A DNA stretch of 64,000 bases from contig CAMWQU010000001.1 in assembly GCA_947176535.1 (NCBI GenBank), positions 62,001 through 126,000 on the forward strand, given 5' to 3'. The notes beneath the pieces were generated by a model. The model searched no databases, was not told the DNA's origin, and was given only the letters and a program-made list of their open reading frames with translations. Positions within the stretch are counted from its first letter, which is position 1. Each line of letters starts with the position of its first letter. This document shows positions 8,405 to 41,825 of the stretch, piece by piece. A program made the translations under genes and the position numbers. This DNA comes from an uncultured Prevotellaceae bacterium. Lineage in GTDB: Bacteria; Bacteroidota; Bacteroidia; Bacteroidales; Bacteroidaceae.

Positions 8405-8732
8405 CTTCCGGCGTTCCGTCCGACTTCTCCGGAGCCTCGTCCACAAACACGTAGACATCCTCATCGGGGTACTTCATCAGATACTGCTCACGCGCCACGC
8501 GCACCACGGCTTCGGGGTTGCTTTCCAGCTCCTCCAGTTTCCGGCTGTCCTCCTCATAGCGGTTCCGGAACTCTCGCATTTCCGACTTCAGCCGGGCAAT
8601 TTCCTGCCGGCACTTGTAACGCTCCCACAGACTGTTCTCGTCCACCATTCCCACGACAACGAGGAAGAATGCCACCACGACAGAATACTTATGGCGGCGC
8701 AGAAATCCCAGTACGGTATAGATACTGCTCAT
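8388..8732 (-). CDS. Septum formation initiator, DivIC/FtsB-type
   Basis: A 114-residue single-pass protein: short cytoplasmic tail, one transmembrane helix (YSVVVAFFLVVVGMV), a coiled coil (about residues 38-75, ARLKSEMREFRNRYEEDSR) and the family end motif NPEAVVRVAREQYLMKYPDEDVY. FtsB/DivIC proteins bridge FtsL and FtsQ/DivIB in the divisome at the inner membrane. The ATG at 8732 (MSSIYTVLG) is chosen; the in-frame TTG at 8774 lies next to the divergent promoter. First gene of a leftward operon ending at ligA/dapA. Confidence 0.9.
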   Translation of the reverse strand: MSSIYTVLGFLRRHKYSVVVAFFLVVVGMVDENSLWERYKCRQEIARLKSEMREFRNRYEEDSRKLEELESNPEAVVRVAREQYLMKYPDEDVYVFVDEAPEKSDGTPEDEETV

Positions 8733-8763
8733 GGTCTTACTTTTTGCTTCTTGGTTTACCGGA

Positions 8764-8823
8764 CAAAGATACAAATAAATTGAGAATTAAGAATTGGGAA
8801 TTGAGAATTTATTCGTACTTTTG
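8764..8823. promoter_or_regulatory. Divergent Bacteroides-type promoters for divIC and dnaX
   Basis: Leftward TATCTTTG (8764-8771) precedes divIC. Rightward TACTTTTG (8816-8823), with TTG 19 bases upstream (8794-8796), precedes dnaX by about 30 bases. Both fit the TAnnTTTG -7 consensus. Confidence 0.65.
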
Positions 8824-8853
8824 CAAAGAAATAAGAAATATTAACTTTTCGTC

Positions 8854-10644
8854 ATGGAACAATACATCGTATCTGCCCGTAAATACAGGCCCGCCACCTT
8901 CGACATGGTTGTGGGACAGCGGGCACTGACTACGACACTGCTCAACGCCATACGAACGGGGAAACTGGCCCACGCCTACCTGTTCTGCGGGCCGCGCGGA
9001 GTGGGAAAAACCACTTGCGCACGTATTTTCGCAAAGACCATCAACTGCATGAACCTCGGAGCCGACGGACAGCCGTGCTGCGAGTGTGAGTCGTGCCGGG
9101 CTTTCGAGGAGGGACGTTCGATGAACATCCACGAACTGGATGCCGCATCCAACAACTCCGTGGACGACATCCGCGAACTCATCGACCAGGTGCGCATTCC
9201 GCCGCAGGTGGGCCGATACAAGGTATTCATCATCGACGAGGTGCACATGCTGTCGCAGCAGGCTTTCAACGCCTTCCTGAAGACGCTGGAGGAGCCGCCC
9301 AAGTACGTCATCTTCATCCTCGCCACCACCGAAAAGCACAAGATACTCCCCACGATTCTCAGCCGCTGCCAGGTCTACGACTTCGCGCGCATTACCATAC
9401 AGAATACCATCGACCACCTCAAGTCTGTGGCTCAGAAAGAGGGCTACAACGTCGAGGAGGAAGCCCTGAGCCTGATAGCCCGAAAAGCCGACGGCGGCAT
9501 GCGCGACGCACTCAGCATCTTCGACCAGATGGTTTCGTTCACGCAGGGCAACATCACCTACCAGAGCACGCTCGAGAACCTCAACATTCTGGATTCGGAA
9601 TACTACTTCCGTCTCGTAGACCACCTGCTGAACAAAGAGGTGGAAGCCTCGTTGCTGTTGTTCAACGAAGTGGTGGAGAAAGGTTTCGACGGCGGCAATT
9701 TCATCGCCGGACTGGCCTCGCACCTGCGCAACCTGCTTGTCAGCCGCGATGCCAAGACACTGCCTCTGCTCGAAGTGGGAGAAACGCAGCGGCAACGCTA
9801 CCACGAACAGGCCCTGCGCTGCCGGCCGCAGTTTCTCTATCGCACCATCAGGCTCTGCAACGACTGCGACCTGGGCTACCGGCAGAGCCGCAACAAGCGT
9901 CTGCAGGTGGAAATCTGTCTCATACAGGCCGCCCAAAGCGCCGACGACGATGGAGATGGTGCGGGGCGCCGCCCCGCGAAGATTCTTAAACCCCTGTTCA
10001 AGCAACTGACTGCGCCAAGGGCGGAGACGGTTGCAACTGCTCAGCGCACCAGTGCTGACAGTCCTGCGGCGGGAGGTGCGGCTGCCGCACAGCGCACGCC
10101 GTCCATACCCGAAAAGAAAATTCCCTCCGTCTCACAGCCGGCCGCAAAGCCGAAAGACACGATTGCGATAAGCCTCAACAGCATCAGCATACGCAACATC
10201 CGGCCTGCCTCGTCACAGCCGCAGACCGCCCCGACGACACAGCAGCCCTCTCCGGCGCAAACGTCCTCTTCCGCAAAGGCGGGGCACCTCGACACCGACA
10301 ACCTCATCCTCTTCTGGCAGCAATATGCCAACAGCCTGCCTCAGTCCGAGGTGGCCACGGCGCAGCGCATGCGAGGCACCACGCCCGAACTGATTTCTCC
10401 GGAGGAATTTGTCGTCACGGTGAACAATCCGCTCATCGAGAAGCAGTTGCTGAAGATGCAGAAGAGCATCGAAGACTACTTCAGCCGGCAACTGAACGGC
10501 AGCCGGGTGAGCATGAAAGTGCGCGTCATCGAAGTCGAAATTGCCGTAAAGTCGTACAACAAGGCCGAGCAATTTCAACAGTTGTTACGGGAAAATCCCA
10601 ACTTTGCCAAACTACACGAAGAGTTCGCTCTGGAACTTAATTGA
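8854..10644 (+). CDS. dnaX: DNA polymerase III subunit gamma/tau
   Basis: Clamp-loader ATPase that loads the beta sliding clamp and ties polymerase cores together. The 596 residues contain Walker A GPRGVGKT (46-53), zinc cysteines C65, C75, C78 and C81, Walker B/DExx VFIIDEVHML and the SRC sensor ILSRCQVYDF. The AAA+ region ends near residue 370. A low-complexity Ala/Pro/Gln/Ser stretch (about 390-475) then leads to a C-terminal domain (about 475-596) in the tau position. No obvious slippery A run is seen that would produce a short gamma form. Divergent from divIC. Confidence 0.96.
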   Translation: MEQYIVSARKYRPATFDMVVGQRALTTTLLNAIRTGKLAHAYLFCGPRGVGKTTCARIFAKTINCMNLGADGQPCCECESCRAFEEGRSMNIHELDAASNNSVDDIRELIDQVRIPPQVGRYKVFIIDEVHMLSQQAFNAFLKTLEEPPKYVIFILATTEKHKILPTILSRCQVYDFARITIQNTIDHLKSVAQKEGYNVEEEALSLIARKADGGMRDALSIFDQMVSFTQGNITYQSTLENLNILDSEYYFRLVDHLLNKEVEASLLLFNEVVEKGFDGGNFIAGLASHLRNLLVSRDAKTLPLLEVGETQRQRYHEQALRCRPQFLYRTIRLCNDCDLGYRQSRNKRLQVEICLIQAAQSADDDGDGAGRRPAKILKPLFKQLTAPRAETVATAQRTSADSPAAGGAAAAQRTPSIPEKKIPSVSQPAAKPKDTIAISLNSISIRNIRPASSQPQTAPTTQQPSPAQTSSSAKAGHLDTDNLILFWQQYANSLPQSEVATAQRMRGTTPELISPEEFVVTVNNPLIEKQLLKMQKSIEDYFSRQLNGSRVSMKVRVIEVEIAVKSYNKAEQFQQLLRENPNFAKLHEEFALELN

Positions 10645-36197: not shown

Positions 36198-36265
36198 TAA
36201 AATAATTATGAATTGTATGTCCGGCTGCTACGAAAAAGTTATGAAGAAGGGTTATTGATGTAGTT

Positions 36266-36982
36266 CTATGAGTATACCATTAGTCCTAATATAAATATCC
36301 CTAAGACTATAAATAAAATAGTCTTTAAAGCAAAAACTTCTTCTTTCAGATCATCAAGTTGTCTTTGCAGTTCCTGCTTCTCTTTATACAACTTGCTCAT
36401 CCCCTCTTTATAACTGTTGAATTGTGCTATATTGAAACCTTTGAACTTGTAAATGAAAGTGTAACCATTGGTATAACTGGATTTGATTATCTCGTCTTGG
36501 TCATCATCTACAACGAAATCTTTACAGGAGTCTTTAGACGTTCCATAACTAACAGCAGGGAGAGATGTACAATCGTGTTCTAACCTGCTAAAACCAGCTC
36601 TTAGAAATTCTGTCAAAGGTTCTATATCTTCTTTGTTCAAATACAAATTCTCCATACTTGTAACGAGGTCGTCTCGCCTATTGAAACGAACTAATTTACC
36701 GTTCGTAGCAAGGTAGAATATTGTGTTCTCAAACAAAGAGAAAAGGCCATCAATGCGCACAAGCATCAAAGCATTCAAAACAACACACAAGCCAATGTAT
36801 CTATCTTGTTGGAGTTTGCGGATGTAAGCATAGTACATGAGATTACCATCTCTATGGATCGCAATCTGTGTGGTTGATTTCACATTAGCGGAAAACTTTT
36901 GGAAAATTGAAGAGGTATAATCGTCAGGATATTGAGAATAGCCACTATTAAATTCTCCAAACAGATAAACCGATACATTCAT
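36266..36982 (-). CDS. Unknown tail-anchored protein (cassette gene 5)
   Basis: Not recognised. 238 residues: an N-terminal alpha/beta region (1-95, with NVSVYLFGEFNSGY and RYIGLCVVLNALMLVRIDGL), a middle acidic stretch (VDDDQDEI), a short coiled coil (about 192-218, KEKQELQRQLDDLKEEV) and one C-terminal transmembrane helix (220-237, ILFIVLGIFILGLMVY). There is no signal peptide, so the bulk should face the cytosol. The alternating strand/helix pattern of the first 95 residues loosely resembles that of cassette gene 3 and small longin/roadblock-like domains (weak inference). It starts three bases after the retropepsin gene stop, at the end of a compact AT-rich operon. Confidence 0.75.
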   Translation of the reverse strand: MNVSVYLFGEFNSGYSQYPDDYTSSIFQKFSANVKSTTQIAIHRDGNLMYYAYIRKLQQDRYIGLCVVLNALMLVRIDGLFSLFENTIFYLATNGKLVRFNRRDDLVTSMENLYLNKEDIEPLTEFLRAGFSRLEHDCTSLPAVSYGTSKDSCKDFVVDDDQDEIIKSSYTNGYTFIYKFKGFNIAQFNSYKEGMSKLYKEKQELQRQLDDLKEEVFALKTILFIVLGIFILGLMVYS

Positions 36983-36985
36983 AAT

Positions 36986-37546
36986 TTATTTCAGTTTGAA
37001 GTTAATAGTTTGACTCTCATTATCAACAGCGTATGCCGCTAGTCGATTCAGTACCTCATTGCCTAAAAGAAGAGGGGCATTGTTGTTCGCTGATACGGTC
37101 GCAGTTACATCTGTACAACGAATCTTACCATCAAGGACAACTTCCTTCAGATTGACAACCATGTTCTCGACAATACTGCCATCAGCTATTTGCGACTGAC
37201 TAACGCCGATAATATCATCCTGCGTTAGGTAGCCTTTCTGATAAAGATAGTTTGCTTCTGCTACTGAAATCAATGTTCCGGAACAACCCGTATCAAAAAC
37301 CATTTCAAAACCAAAGCCATTTACAGAAACCTTAACGTACTTTACACCATTTTTCTCTGTAAATGGTATAGAAACAATTTCTGCATCCGTCATTCGCTCA
37401 TAATCTGAACTGATGCTATTCTCATAAGCGAGCGTATCTATCTCTGTATCTGCTCCGCTATCATAGAAAGCGGGATTTTTCTTCTTTCCGCCACATGCTA
37501 CAACCAATATAGCAGCGAAAAATAGTGTACTATATTTTACCATCAT
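36986..37546 (-). CDS. Retropepsin-like aspartic protease lipoprotein (cassette gene 4)
   Basis: 186 residues. Lipoprotein signal MMVKYSTLFFAAILVVACGG (lipobox VVAC, C18), linker, then a single retropepsin-like domain (about 60-186): VKVSVNGFGFEMVFDTGCSG with the catalytic D85-T86-G87, the flap region (VSQSQIADGSIVENMVV) and a late hydrophobic LLLGNEVLNRL. As with retroviral proteases, one domain supplies one aspartate, so a dimer would be needed. Predicted to sit on the periplasmic side, processing a partner (inference). Overlaps the preceding gene by ATGA. Confidence 0.85.
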   Translation of the reverse strand: MMVKYSTLFFAAILVVACGGKKKNPAFYDSGADTEIDTLAYENSISSDYERMTDAEIVSIPFTEKNGVKYVKVSVNGFGFEMVFDTGCSGTLISVAEANYLYQKGYLTQDDIIGVSQSQIADGSIVENMVVNLKEVVLDGKIRCTDVTATVSANNNAPLLLGNEVLNRLAAYAVDNESQTINFKLK

Positions 37547-39099
37547 TGTTTTACCGTAATTCTTTTTGTTAGGAATTCTACTCCATTGACTTTATAGGTA
37601 ATAGTACAAAATCCTGCACGTTTGGGAATAATCTTGTTCTCTTGAATCTCAAAGTCTTTTGAATCATAACCCCACTCTCCCTTAAGTTCTTCTGATACGC
37701 CTTGTATGGACAGAGTGTAATTTGTTTTAGAACCAACCTGCATAAATAGACCTTGGCTTTCATATATGTTCGAAATATCAATTCTTGCCTCTGGATACTT
37801 TTCTTTCAAAGATTGTAAGGTTTTCTGAATTACCTCAGCTCCCACAGCATCTTCTTCATGTTCTTCTTCCTCACCTAAGGTAGCAGCACTTTCAGCAACC
37901 GATTCTTGTTGCTGTTGAGTCTGCTCTACCGGGACTTTTTTCACATTCGGATTGTCTTTACTATCACAACTCTTAAAAAGCGTCACTCCGATAAATCCCA
38001 AAAGAACTATCATTACGGAAAAAGCGGTAAGTGGATGGATTTTCTTGATAAATGACATTAACCCGTAGGACTTTTCATTTTCATCATACCCTCTTGTTCC
38101 AATAGAAGAAATACCAAGCAACTCAGAGATTCCACTCAAACCGGAAAGATTATTCTTAATCTCAGCAATGAGATTTTCCATTTTTTCTACTTTCTTTTGG
38201 CTTTCTTCGTAATGTCTTTTATAAGATTGAGCCTTTTGCAACTTAGCATTCAAGTCATTAACCTGACCATTTAACCTATTTATTTCTTTCTCTGCCTTAT
38301 CATTTTGGGCACTAAGCTGGCCGATTCTTTTGTCTGCCTCCTTATATTCATTCTTGACGGCCAGAATCCCCTGTTCTTTATCTTTTTGGGCGGACAAGAC
38401 ATCCTGTTGGGCCTTTTGTAGAGCTGCAGATATTTGCTGCTGAGCATTAGTCGTTACAGCTTGTATTTCAGCATTCATCTTATTGATGATCTGCTGCTCT
38501 TTTGAACTCGGATAAAACGATGATACGGAAATTTTACCCGTTGCCTTTACCTGCTTTATTACAACATTAGGAGTTGCCTCCAACACATTGATTGTAACAC
38601 TATCATTTTGCCCATTACTTTTGAAATCGCCCAGCGAAATGAAATCCTTATCGCTTGAGAACTGCATCAAGTAATTCTGCAACTCTTTTTCAAGTGCTTT
38701 GAGAATATCATTTGCATGATTCAACTGCGATACCAAGAAACGACATCCACCTCCCGCTGTATATTCTAACACACTACCTATAATGAACTTATTAAAAGCA
38801 ACTTCAAGAAGATTGTAGATGTTGGGAATATCTGCATAATAAAAGTTGATGCGTAATGTCAGAGCAAAGTAGCCACCGGTGCGGTTTGATTTGTCCTGAA
38901 TTTTGTCATTATAATAAAAATATGTATAGTATGCGTTGGTCTCGCCTGCGAATTGCATGACCTCCAAAAACATCTGAGAAAGCACATTTGACTTACGACC
39001 ATAAAACGTCTCTATGTACTTTGAGTCTGCACCAGGGTTCCCCCAAATGTCGTGCCCATTAGGAACACCATGAACGAAAAGTTTGATATTATATGCCAT
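37543..39099 (-). CDS. Unknown coiled-coil single-pass membrane protein (cassette gene 3)
   Basis: Not recognised. 518 residues: N-terminal alpha/beta domain (1-140, NIKLFVHGVPNGHDIWG; YYTYFYYNDKIQD), a second small domain (140-195), a long coiled coil (about 200-315, rich in Gln/Lys/Glu), one transmembrane helix (357-376, LTAFSVMIVLLGFIGVTLF), a Gln/Glu-rich linker (388-418) and a C-terminal beta-rich domain (423-518, IPKRAGFCTITYKVNGVEF, Ig-like by pattern). The N-terminal part should be cytosolic and the C-terminal domain periplasmic, so the protein could carry a signal across the membrane between the GTPase-like protein and the periplasmic protease (inference). Confidence 0.8.
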   Translation of the reverse strand: MAYNIKLFVHGVPNGHDIWGNPGADSKYIETFYGRKSNVLSQMFLEVMQFAGETNAYYTYFYYNDKIQDKSNRTGGYFALTLRINFYYADIPNIYNLLEVAFNKFIIGSVLEYTAGGGCRFLVSQLNHANDILKALEKELQNYLMQFSSDKDFISLGDFKSNGQNDSVTINVLEATPNVVIKQVKATGKISVSSFYPSSKEQQIINKMNAEIQAVTTNAQQQISAALQKAQQDVLSAQKDKEQGILAVKNEYKEADKRIGQLSAQNDKAEKEINRLNGQVNDLNAKLQKAQSYKRHYEESQKKVEKMENLIAEIKNNLSGLSGISELLGISSIGTRGYDENEKSYGLMSFIKKIHPLTAFSVMIVLLGFIGVTLFKSCDSKDNPNVKKVPVEQTQQQQESVAESAATLGEEEEHEEDAVGAEVIQKTLQSLKEKYPEARIDISNIYESQGLFMQVGSKTNYTLSIQGVSEELKGEWGYDSKDFEIQENKIIPKRAGFCTITYKVNGVEFLTKRITVKQ

Positions 39100-39110
39100 A
39101 GTTCTAAATA

Positions 39111-40061
39111 TTAACCGGTGATTTTACTCATAATGCACTTCCACAATTTTACGCAATACTCACGTGGCCCTTCTTGATAGGTAAGACCATTTACAGCTTC
39201 TGTGTAGAATCCAGTCTGAAAAGGAACGAAATCACAATTGTATTCTCTCCAGAGCTTTGTTATAGGATTCTGATTCATAAAAGGTACGAAGATGCTTGGG
39301 TAAAGATTCTTAATTTCTGTAATTGCAGCAGACATATTTATGTTTCCTACACTGCGAACAAAGTTTGTTTTGTCTATTTTGTTAAAAATGAATACGGCAT
39401 TATCCTTGGGTCTCATACTCTGCTTCAGACGAGTAATCTTGCTCACGTAGTTAGCTCTGTCGGTATGATCCATCCAGTCCGGTTCAACCATAATTGTCCA
39501 AACTTTGCGATTTGAACTTGCGATGATAGTATTGACATAATTGGGGAACTGAGCATTGGGTTTCTTGGGGTCGAAATAATACTCACCGGGAGCTTCAAGA
39601 ATTTGACAAATGCGGCGACCATTCTTTATGACTTCTACGAGCATAAAGCTGATACGGTTGGTTGAAGTTGCCGCGTTATCGCTGTTCATTGTCTCATCAA
39701 AGCGTTCACAGATGTCCGTATAGTTTGTATCGGACGTTGGACGGAATGTGCGAATAGGTGATACAGTGTACCCTTCAGCCTGCAAGAAACGAGTCATTCT
39801 TACTAGAGTCATCGTCTTACCACAGGCAGGAGGGCCAAAAAGAATTACGAGTGGCGCATTATGGTCAGAAATGGTAACTCGGATGCTGTTAGGGTCATTC
39901 AATTCTGTTGCACTCAGGCCGTGTACTCCACTGTCTTGCTGTACAGGAGTTTCAAACACCGGGATTGGAGCCTGCTCGGATTGTTCTGTTACTACAGGAA
40001 TTTCGTTTTCTACTACAGGAGCTGTCTCCATTGTAGGTATGGGATTGTTAGATACTGGCAT
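39111..40061 (-). CDS. GTPase-like P-loop protein (cassette gene 2)
   Basis: 316 residues. A disordered Pro/Glu/Thr-rich N-terminus (1-60) leads to a P-loop domain: Walker A GPPACGKT (76-83), LEAPGEYYFD (155-164) where small GTPases have DxxG, and NKID (227-230), a canonical guanine-specifying NKxD motif. The C-terminus (PREYCVKLWKCIMSKITG) is amphipathic. No signal peptide or transmembrane segment. Together these support a cytosolic GTP-binding protein of a divergent family; the Glu in the switch II position is unusual. It lies between two membrane-protein genes of the same operon, 11 bases before gene 3. Confidence 0.8.
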   Translation of the reverse strand: MPVSNNPIPTMETAPVVENEIPVVTEQSEQAPIPVFETPVQQDSGVHGLSATELNDPNSIRVTISDHNAPLVILFGPPACGKTMTLVRMTRFLQAEGYTVSPIRTFRPTSDTNYTDICERFDETMNSDNAATSTNRISFMLVEVIKNGRRICQILEAPGEYYFDPKKPNAQFPNYVNTIIASSNRKVWTIMVEPDWMDHTDRANYVSKITRLKQSMRPKDNAVFIFNKIDKTNFVRSVGNINMSAAITEIKNLYPSIFVPFMNQNPITKLWREYNCDFVPFQTGFYTEAVNGLTYQEGPREYCVKLWKCIMSKITG

Positions 40062-40089
40062 AATGCTTTATATTTTTATCAAGTAATTG

Positions 40090-41148
40090 TTATTCCTCAC
40101 TTTTCTTGAATGCTATATCAAAGAATATGAATGCTGCAACATCGACAAGAATTGAAATGAGCACCCAAAAGAAGAAGCCATGACCGGCGTACTCGCCTTT
40201 AAGGAAGTCCTCCCAAACATCAAAAACACTTATCATACGTTTAACCTTGGTTACTGCATTAGGTGATGTGTAAGCAGCTTGATCTGTTTCATCCTTGAAA
40301 TCAACAAACTGCTTATAAGTACGGATGGTCGCATAACCTGCATTAAGCCTATCGCAGATTGTCTTGATATCATTCGCATCATTCAGGTCTAATGTACCGT
40401 CTTCTATGTACTTCTTCACCAGTTCTAGGTTCTTGTAATCCTTCCCGGCCTGTTTTTGGTGATTGTTATTGGGAGGAGTCATCTCCTTGACGATGTTTAG
40501 CAATCGACTGTCAAGAAGAATATAAATCTTTGTACGATAAGCGTCATAGAGGCGCTGACGATCCTGAACGGATGTACCCTTGAAAGTAAGAGGCTCTATT
40601 TTTGCCACGCCAAGCAATTCTGCAAACTCTCTGAGAATCTCCTTGGCCTTTGGCCCGAATCCGGGATTGGCATCATTTTCAATTTCTGCCTTCAATTCGC
40701 CCAGTTTTACATCTACCTTGTTCCTAAGCTCGGCACACTTTATTTGAATCTTTGTGTCTGTAACAATATTGTCCTTTATCTGAACAAGATAACCCTCTGT
40801 GGCAGAAATGTCACTTGTCACCTTGTCGTTAATCATACTTCTATAAAAGAATGTGTGCGTGTTAGTAGGCATACTGCATGCAAGCCAAAAGATAAGAAGA
40901 ATAATTACACCGCCCAATAGACGCAATCCTCTTTTCTCCAAATAGATTTTCTGATTAAGGCTGTCCACAATCATTTTGGTACCCCATGAGGCAATGAAGA
41001 AGAAGCCAACAGTAACAATCCAACACATGGCAACAGGCCATGAAGAAAGAAGCAGGTGTAAGGATTCAGCGGTTGCCCAACAACTGACTGCTGCAAAGGC
41101 CAAAAAGGCAAGAATGCCAAAGATTTTCAAGAACTTGTTTTCGTTCAT
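40090..41148 (-). CDS. Unknown polytopic membrane protein with a large extracytoplasmic loop (cassette gene 1)
   Basis: Not recognised. 352 residues with three N-terminal transmembrane helices (about 8-27, 37-56, 77-94), a soluble ~225-residue loop of mostly helical character (95-320, e.g. EGYLVQIKDNIVTDTKIQIK and AKEILREFAELLGV) and a fourth helix near the end (about 323-345, GFFFWVLISILVDVAAFIFF). With three helices first, the loop is probably periplasmic. It could be a sensor or scaffold. First gene of the operon; a weak leftward promoter-like TTTG plus TAGCCTTC lies 25-60 bases upstream. Confidence 0.75.
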   Translation of the reverse strand: MNENKFLKIFGILAFLAFAAVSCWATAESLHLLLSSWPVAMCWIVTVGFFFIASWGTKMIVDSLNQKIYLEKRGLRLLGGVIILLIFWLACSMPTNTHTFFYRSMINDKVTSDISATEGYLVQIKDNIVTDTKIQIKCAELRNKVDVKLGELKAEIENDANPGFGPKAKEILREFAELLGVAKIEPLTFKGTSVQDRQRLYDAYRTKIYILLDSRLLNIVKEMTPPNNNHQKQAGKDYKNLELVKKYIEDGTLDLNDANDIKTICDRLNAGYATIRTYKQFVDFKDETDQAAYTSPNAVTKVKRMISVFDVWEDFLKGEYAGHGFFFWVLISILVDVAAFIFFDIAFKKSEE

Positions 41149-41224
41149 AATTATTATACATTTCCTCAGGTTCCCATCTGAAGAAGGCTAATTTGTTAAT
41201 AATCTGAACGAACAAATAAAAGAA

Positions 41225-41310
41225 GCGTGGGAACTGCCTGTCGTCTATCCCACTCACTGAGGCCTTCGCGTTGCCTAATCTTGTTGAACAGACAACGCTA
41301 GAGCCCACGC
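41225..41310. ncRNA. Candidate structured RNA (strand unresolved)
   Basis: GCGTGGG and CCCACGC about 85 bases apart can close a stem that encloses an inner GCGTTG/CAACGC hairpin and a second GCCT/AGGC pairing, like a multi-branch RNA. There is no open frame here. I could not match it to tmRNA, RNase P or SRP RNA. It lies about 80-160 bases upstream of the cassette's first gene, so it may be a leader element or a separate small RNA. Confidence 0.3.
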
Positions 41311-41319
41311 CGATATGAT

Positions 41320-41690
41320 TTTTCACACACCATTCGGAATAACTTTAACCACACGAATTGCAAGGATACAATTTATGCTGTCAGTACAGTCCTATGGCTG
41401 TGAATAGAATCACACCCGGGTCATCTACCATTGCTAAGTTCCAGACAAGATTTAGAAGTTGCGAAGTTCCAGTGAGTCAAGAACAAAGCGCCAAGTAAAC
41501 GCCTTTCTATAAGTTCTCGTCTTCTGCCCACCCATCCTCCTCTGATGACAGGTTGCCGCACCAAAGGCTCGGCGTGTGCTTAGACGATGCAAATGTCAAA
41601 TGATACTTAGTAAGGCACAAGTCCTTTGCTCAGATAAACAATTTGCACGTGCAAAGTTACACATTTTTTATAAATAAAGGCAAGAAACGT
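41320..41690. other. Non-coding stretch upstream of the AT-rich cassette
   Basis: No credible gene on either strand. On the minus strand CTGGAACTTCGCAA and CTGGAACTTAGCAA occur 28 bases apart near 41440-41475. A GCCG/CGGC hairpin lies near 41560. Base composition is more balanced than in the cassette itself. It could hold an RNA gene or a former junction. Confidence 0.35.
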
Positions 41691-41794
41691 TATCAAAATC
41701 CCGTTTGTGCAATGATTTTTCTATAAAAGCACCTGAAGCGAAAGCAAATGCAATGAAAAAGTAAAGCCCGAATAAGTTTTTTATGAACCGGGAA

Positions 41795-41825
41795 TTGCGA
41801 ATTGTTGAATTGTTTCGTATTTTTG
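41795..41825 (+). promoter_or_regulatory. Promoter of uvrA
   Basis: TTG (41795-41797), 20-base gap, TATTTTTG (41818-41825), 21 bases before the ATG at 41847. Confidence 0.65.

Follow-up and report, generated by a model that had tools for sequence, protein, structure and literature searches.

Longin domains have been described chiefly in eukaryotes and Asgard archaea, and their fold is familiar from membrane sorting in eukaryotic cells. Several described bacterial systems come close to the combination reported here. MglA-MglB and the Streptomyces conservons (PMC4316618, PMC13343842) place a GTPase gene beside a regulator of the Roadblock/longin superfamily, and the conservons also include a membrane sensor. 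TagF, a regulator of the type VI secretion system (T6SS), is reported to resemble the longin of Sec22b (PMC3325213), the one bacterial longin report that the searches came upon. In Kaur et al. 2020 (PMC7159879), DO-GTPases are defined by a conserved Glu in Walker B, and the DO-GTPase/GAP1 systems combine TRAFAC GTPases carrying this residue with transmembrane (TM)-bound partners, variable domains including FGS and, at some loci, two GTPases. The present analysis concerns a five-gene operon (g1 to g5) at positions 36266-41148 of a 64,000-nucleotide stretch, hereafter the window, from an uncultured Prevotellaceae bacterium (assembly GCA_947176535.1, contig CAMWQU010000001.1, positions 62,001 to 126,000). 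The operon encodes a predicted GTPase and two membrane-tethered proteins with putative longin-type N-terminal domains. This combination is genuine, conserved across loci and mobile, and within the reach of the searches no description of it was found. We class it as GTPase-plus-Roadblock/longin signalling bordering on GTPase-centric conflict systems; new in it are the predicted pair of longins, the TM tether and tails that can be exchanged.

All five genes lie on the reverse strand, and the open reading frame (ORF) coordinates confirmed the preliminary description of five leftward genes with their motifs and with intergenic distances of 28, 11, -4 and 3 bases from g1 to g5 in turn (ORF starts were taken as the first ATG, GTG or TTG, hence some N-termini are overlong). 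That description had made its proposal depend on homologues occurring together, and they do, with g1, g2 and g3 contiguous and in the same order in 85 of 89 non-duplicate loci and g1 immediately 5' of g2 in 87 of the 89. Because gene order is kept in relatives, the five genes are no chance run of ORFs. Among the loci with g1-g2-g3, 78 carried a g5-type gene and 60 carried g4. Iterated family profiles drift onto coiled coils, hence g3 and g5 were assigned by position in the locus counts, and a 175-aa "g3" opening locus L071 is probably a false label from such drift. An additional gene of ~100-240 aa, forming one family by blastp, was found between g3 and g4 at L048, L118, L122, L125, L136 and L140. 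Among the curated libraries searched (Pfam, NCBIfam and PADLOC), only g4 was recognised above cutoff and the gene set matched no described system, in agreement with the earlier view of the set as unrecognised; PADLOC models carry no cutoffs, and their matches to g3 were coiled-coil hits. Likewise, no description was found in open-licence papers on bacterial longins or this gene set, within the parts of these papers that were accessible.

The g2 gene (39111-40061, reverse strand) encodes a 316-aa protein of predicted TRAFAC fold. It had been described as a P-loop protein with GPPACGKT and NKID, and both motifs were present, together with LE(156)APGE in the Walker-B region. Its AlphaFold model had a mean predicted local distance difference test score (pLDDT) of 89, and all 50 rows listed by Foldseek and all 50 listed by VIA were, as we read the entries, GTPases or GTPase-holding complexes. 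With both the fold and the G1 and G4 motifs of TRAFAC GTPases, g2 is almost certainly a GTPase, as judged from the model. Residues G81, K82, E156, K228 and D230 were invariant across 84 sequences, and E156, in our reading, would occupy the Walker-B position.

This glutamate bears on the possibility that the operon belongs to the DO-GTPase/GAP1 conflict systems, its GAP1 having diverged past recognition into g3 and g5. An invariant Glu in the Walker-B region of a TRAFAC GTPase agrees with the definition of Kaur et al. (PMC7159879), and FGE-sulfatase tails on g5, the occurrence of two g2 genes at L045, L048, L114 and L138 (4 of 89 loci) and a caspase-like gene 3' of the operon in three loci (L045, L058 and L140, by blastp cluster, with Pfam for L140 only) point the same way. 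In addition, g2 appears to be distantly related to DO-GTPases through a more distant g1-g2-g3 version, consisting of a four-TM protein, a GTPase and a TM protein that combines a coiled coil with a similar N-terminus. Profile comparison of its genes with those of the window gave E 7e-14 for g1, 4e-7 for g2 and 9e-5 for the g3 N-terminus (hhalign probability 60%), while the distant g3 N-terminus reached only 0.027 against that of g5. Many of the 120 listed relatives of the distant GTPase carried Pfam PF19975, which we take to be DO-GTPase1. Conversely, g2 matched no Pfam DO-GTPase model above cutoff: DO-GTPase2 matched just 11 of 84 g2 members, with a best value of 0.0053 below cutoff, no DO-GTPase model was listed for the window's g2 at E up to 10, and DO-GTPase1 was not among the best 25 of 81 families for g2 members. 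The GAP1-N2 model matched in 0 of 118 genomes of the phylum, the window's own included. Compared with 119 GAP1-N1 proteins (120 listed, one dropped for lacking the region; the profile comparison covered GAP1-N1 only), the N-termini of g3 and g5 gave E 0.28 and 0.098, respectively, within the range of unrelated controls, and the kinship to GAP1-N prompted by a similar motif order was therefore unsupported. The operon thus differs from these systems in having no recognised GAP1 (GAP1-N1 compared) and in having two putative longin-type TM proteins, a retropepsin-like lipoprotein and a four-TM protein with a large loop, and we regard membership as possible but rather doubtful.

Three copies of the distant version (L173, L223 and L224) come from a different class of the phylum and five (L225-L229) from a different order within the window's class, the latter being Flavobacteriales from the names of relatives. 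Two of the eight copies had g4 (L228, E 1e-44; L229, E 1e-43). A large ORF lies just 5' of the three genes in all three loci of the genus represented by L173 (1756-7101), L223 (5227-10563) and L224 (169-3792); by reading it is RHS/YD-repeat-like in L173 and L223, and the L224 ORF resembles part of that of L173.

The g5 gene (36266-36982, reverse strand) encodes a 238-aa protein with a predicted longin-fold domain at ~1-136, an extension to ~180, a short coil and a C-terminal TM helix. Its AlphaFold model (pLDDT 96) showed the secondary structure E3-11, E14-18, H24-32, E38-45, E48-56, E62-70, H78-94, short strands and H113-133, in the b1-b2-a1-b3-b4-b5-a2-a3 order of a longin domain. Its best structural matches were longin domains (Lst4, Lokiarchaeal Roadblock-Longin, the folliculin complex and VAMP7), and longin-containing chains, as we read the entries, took up ranks 1-9 in Foldseek and ranks 1-10 in VIA. 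The close match of the model to solved longins indicates that the N-terminal domain of g5 very probably has a longin fold. Convergence would be another explanation, with the N-termini of g3 and g5 being PAS-like sensor domains and g2 acting independently: the Foldseek E-values were weak, CpxA, a bacterial sensor domain, appeared at rank 11, and by sequence profile the g5 N-terminus matched no longin family among the first 25 families listed, HMMER being not very sensitive at such a distance; a C9orf72-like match was weak and limited to 2 of 72 g5 members (best 0.02). The uninterrupted run of longin-containing chains at the top of both searches, and a GTPase gene linked to these genes in 85 of 89 loci, make this explanation unlikely. 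No Roadblock-only chain occurred among the 50 VIA rows listed for g5, an absence that within those rows is no proof.

The g3 gene (37543-39099, reverse strand) encodes 518 aa, with an N-terminal domain at ~1-200, a coiled coil at ~200-320, one TM segment at 357-375 and a C-terminal region, consistent with the single-pass coiled-coil protein described earlier (TM segments here and below are from a simple hydropathy scan). Comparison of the g3 and g5 N-termini by hhalign gave E 3.5e-18, with unrelated controls at 0.057 or worse; this homology suggests that the N-terminal domain of g3 is also longin-like. Together with the g5 fold, the exchangeable g5 tails and the leader RNA considered below, the g3-g5 homology goes beyond the preliminary description.

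The TM segment of the window's g5 lies at 216-234 of 238; hydropathy also flagged 63-81, which the model places inside the folded domain. The protein had been called tail-anchored, which holds for the window's copy, a tail-less form. A TM segment was detected in 73 g5 copies, and in only 5 of these, the window's copy included, do at most 15 residues follow it. Most relatives extend beyond the helix, and because a tail follows, the TM segment is no terminal anchor in them. This also bears on a SNARE-like or vesicle machine, in which longin-coil-TM proteins would zip membranes together with a Rab/Rag-like GTPase. VAMP7 has the same linear layout of longin, coil and C-terminal TM helix as the window's g5, but the long heptad coil of a SNARE before the TM helix is missing: in g5 the coil that joins the last strand to the TM segment has only ~30 residues, not enough to form a SNARE motif. 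Since Pfam SNARE PF05739 matched just 3 of 72 g5 members (best 0.23) and most relatives carry a tail, such a machine is highly improbable.

Taking the g5 tail as everything right after the TM segment, coil included, and similarity as a blastp match at E 1e-3, N-termini were mutually detectable in 90% of 2016 locus pairs and tails in 14%. Tails lacked detectable similarity in 39 of 72 pairs whose N-termini are similar, and those from 64 loci formed 26 clusters, the largest with 29 loci and 20 with a single locus. Pfam assigned DUF805 to three, FGE-sulfatase to two and Big_2 to two of 81 g5 proteins, and tandem g5 copies with differing tails occurred at L041 and L042. The tail, predicted to be periplasmic, is often exchanged between loci, and the best evidence for a role in sensing or conflict is this design of a constant part joined to a swappable one.

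The g1 gene (40090-41148, reverse strand) encodes a 352-aa membrane protein with TM segments at 9-27, 32-50, 75-93 and 325-343, i.e., three TM segments, a loop of ~230 aa and a last, C-terminal TM segment, as expected of the four-helix protein with a large loop reported previously. From the flanking charges the loop is read as periplasmic. No Pfam family matched g1, and NCBIfam gave AmaP alone, far under cutoff. The g4 gene (36986-37546, reverse strand) encodes a 186-aa probable lipoprotein with one N-terminal hydropathic segment and the motif FDTGC. It matched Pfam gag-asp_proteas PF13975 above cutoff (E 1.3e-10), and a D[TS]G motif occurred in 61 and a lipobox-like pattern in 46 of 64 g4 proteins; motif and family profile place g4 among the retropepsin-like (clan AA) proteases, and the earlier assignment as a retropepsin-like lipoprotein stands. 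In 29 of 89 loci, some of them cut by contig ends, no g4 was detected, which makes it look like an accessory rather than a core component.

Considering these features together, we lean, by a small degree, towards a membrane-anchored GTPase switch with a longin platform and periplasmic parts. Here g2 would be the cytosolic GTPase, and the N-terminal longin domains of g3 and g5 would sit at the inner membrane on its cytosolic side, most likely pairing into a platform to which g2 binds and which sets or reads the GTP/GDP state of g2, by analogy with the paired longins that act on Rab and Rag GTPases in eukaryotes. The coiled coils and single TM helices of g3 and g5 would relay the change to the periplasm, where the C-terminal region of g3 and, in most relatives, the exchangeable g5 tail could sense or act. 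The large-loop protein g1 may serve as a membrane sensor or pore partner, and g4, where present, may trim or release a periplasmic part. The preliminary description had proposed a trans-envelope machine linking cytosolic GTP state to a periplasmic protease; the predicted GTPase and a hydropathy pattern that puts components on either side of the inner membrane support its outline, while the protease looks like an accessory.

Eukaryotic Rag GTPases with FLCN-FNIP/Lst4-Lst7 and longin SNAREs (VAMP7) offer the nearest solved folds to g5 and, tied, to g2. The operon differs in being bacterial, with no detectable sequence kinship, with TM and periplasmic parts and with no DENN domain seen in the g5 model. 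MglB and CvnB are Roadblock proteins, whereas the operon has the longin strand order, two TM-tethered paralogues and parts beyond the membrane. TagF is a T6SS accessory protein, and we know of no TagF beside a DO-type GTPase.

The operon lies within an insert of ~5.6 kb (approximately 36215-41808, without strand), made up of the five genes and a leader of ~600 bp with conserved RNA structure, between the divergent promoters of GHL10 and uvrA, genes named from the preliminary description and from reading the sequence. Alignment and reading still detect both promoters at the borders of the insert. Empty sites, with GHL10 and uvrA divergent and 81-131 bp apart, were found in 7 of 29 same-genus loci; these 29 were picked via the GHL10 gene, for which 58 other genomes had a match, as the ones with the best scores. 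In 20 of the 29, uvrA was present within the fetched stretch, on either side of GHL10. The G+C content was 39.2% in the operon and 53.5% in the window minus the insert. Of 399 genomes of the family, 31 had a g2 match, spread over 12 of 30 genera; the 31 count the window's own genome and G028, whose match was weak and partial (E 6.6e-4). At the order level, 17 of 392 genomes matched at E 0.001 or better, with most of the length covered in only 4, own included, and at the phylum level 8 of 392 matched, full-length in the own genome only. Same-genus copies of g2 ranged from 86% down to 36% identity while those of other genera reached 77%, which fits transfer. Empty sites, AT-richness, patchy presence and the greater distance of some same-genus copies than of other-genus ones support the view that the operon moved by horizontal transfer, as its composition had suggested at the outset.

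Across relatives, flanking genes vary and insertion sites differ. A scan of genome contigs found 109 relatives, and among the best 80 of these nearly all were labelled Bacteroidales or families thereof, the labels including Segatella copri, Parabacteroides distasonis and Porphyromonas endodontalis; metagenome-assembled genomes labelled Clostridiales, Roseburia, Lachnospiraceae and Opitutales may be mis-binned contigs. No g2 match was found on plasmids or phages. One operon-bearing element in the viral collection (L174) looks, by its integrase-like ORFs, like a Bacteroides mobile element rather than a phage.

Upstream of g1, the leader RNA (41205-41515, reverse strand) showed covarying helices in a 17-sequence alignment and ended in a G+C-rich hairpin followed by a U-rich run, resembling an attenuator. 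The hairpin in its 3' part has 23 pairs, with 98.9% of cells paired and 8 pairs changed on both sides; none of 500 shuffles reached these measures (7 of 500 did for further pair types), slid versions of the helix were 41-50% paired, and one row lacked the 3' arm. Segment 41205-41315 gave a z of -2.67. Rfam yielded no match at the gathering score, and up to E 1 only one chance-level snoRNA match on the other strand (E 0.71). In L045, L051 and L056 the leader is followed by a gene of a NusG-family cluster (Pfam NusG for L056 only), in L052 by a gene outside it. Attenuation relieved by a NusG-like antiterminator is likely from these patterns, in which case the terminator-like hairpin would gate expression, and the leader is a candidate new cis-regulatory RNA of Bacteroidales. 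Two further copies in the own genome, with the hairpin complete by reading (L208:1177-1460, C5; L209:1025-1310, C4), precede other operons, one with BACON/FN3-like lipoproteins and one with TerB-like, 425-aa membrane and vWA-like genes, as read from the sequence.

The likeliest use of the switch would be conflict or envelope surveillance, spread by horizontal transfer, a role that is plausible but unproved. Observations on the neighbourhoods point both ways. The preliminary description had suggested checking for enrichment near defence systems, and a PADLOC scan of sampled near versus far flanks gave no sign, among the matches listed, of more defence families by the operon. Contexts that favour conflict do occur, the caspase-like gene 3' of the operon in three loci among them, though each is rare. 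A restriction-modification context was clear at only two loci: L130, where a g2-type GTPase fused to a calcineurin-like phosphoesterase (metallophosphoesterase-like; 8642-10501) lies between HsdS-like and HsdR-like genes by reading, and L174, where integrase-like ORFs and an HsdS fragment (PADLOC 2e-31) precede the operon. Type I restriction families occurred among the flank matches, with no member named. A MotA/MotB-like pair resembling ZorA/ZorB of Zorya abuts the operon in L069, L090 and L106, with a MotB-like gene alone visible at L071; PADLOC gave 1e-9 to 3e-12 for ZorB1 and, for ZorA2, 5.8e-9 in L069, 5.7e-6 in L106 and none in L090 (L071 was outside the scan). Such genes recur in only 4 of 89 loci, however, the window's five genes match no Zor model, and the operon does not hold the Zorya set of ZorA, ZorB and partner genes.

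These data bring in envelope-stress or house-keeping signalling, in which the same GTPase-longin switch would, as in MglAB or the actinobacterial conservons, control the surface of the cell itself. The absence of visible defence enrichment in the sampled flanks, the mostly ordinary near-flank Pfam families (as judged from 25 of 167) and a leader shared with two other operons of the own genome, one with BACON/FN3-like lipoproteins by reading, agree with it. The patchy presence of the operon (31 of 399 genomes), differing insertion sites, exchanged tails and tandem g5 copies fit conflict genes better, and we give house-keeping a minority chance.

Further neighbours were noted. Two ORFs at L174 were read as AbiE genes, but PADLOC returned 0 families for both and the assignment was dropped. 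Tandem GH25 lysozyme-like and caspase-type genes (Pfam) lie 3' of the operon at L140:12137-14196, a TIR-domain protein (Pfam TIR_2) is convergent to it at L106:8990-9703 (reverse strand), and a BACON-repeat-type protein lies mostly immediately 3' in seven loci (L053, L078, L086, L088, L102, L116 and L124; Pfam for L053).

A bacterial operon coupling two longin-type proteins to a GTPase would offer a small, testable model for the control of GTPases by such platforms and for the origin of the platforms. If the g5 tails are effectors or sensors, the operon would represent a new family of trans-envelope systems, serving conflict or surveillance, in genera common in the gut and mouth. More tentatively, it may be a horizontally moving bacterial counterpart of the eukaryotic Rag/Rab-longin module, a GTPase with an inner-membrane longin hetero-pair that passes GTP state to swappable periplasmic effectors and serves to defend against phages or other bacteria. 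Longin-GTPase platforms would then exist as complete signalling machines outside Asgard archaea and eukaryotes.

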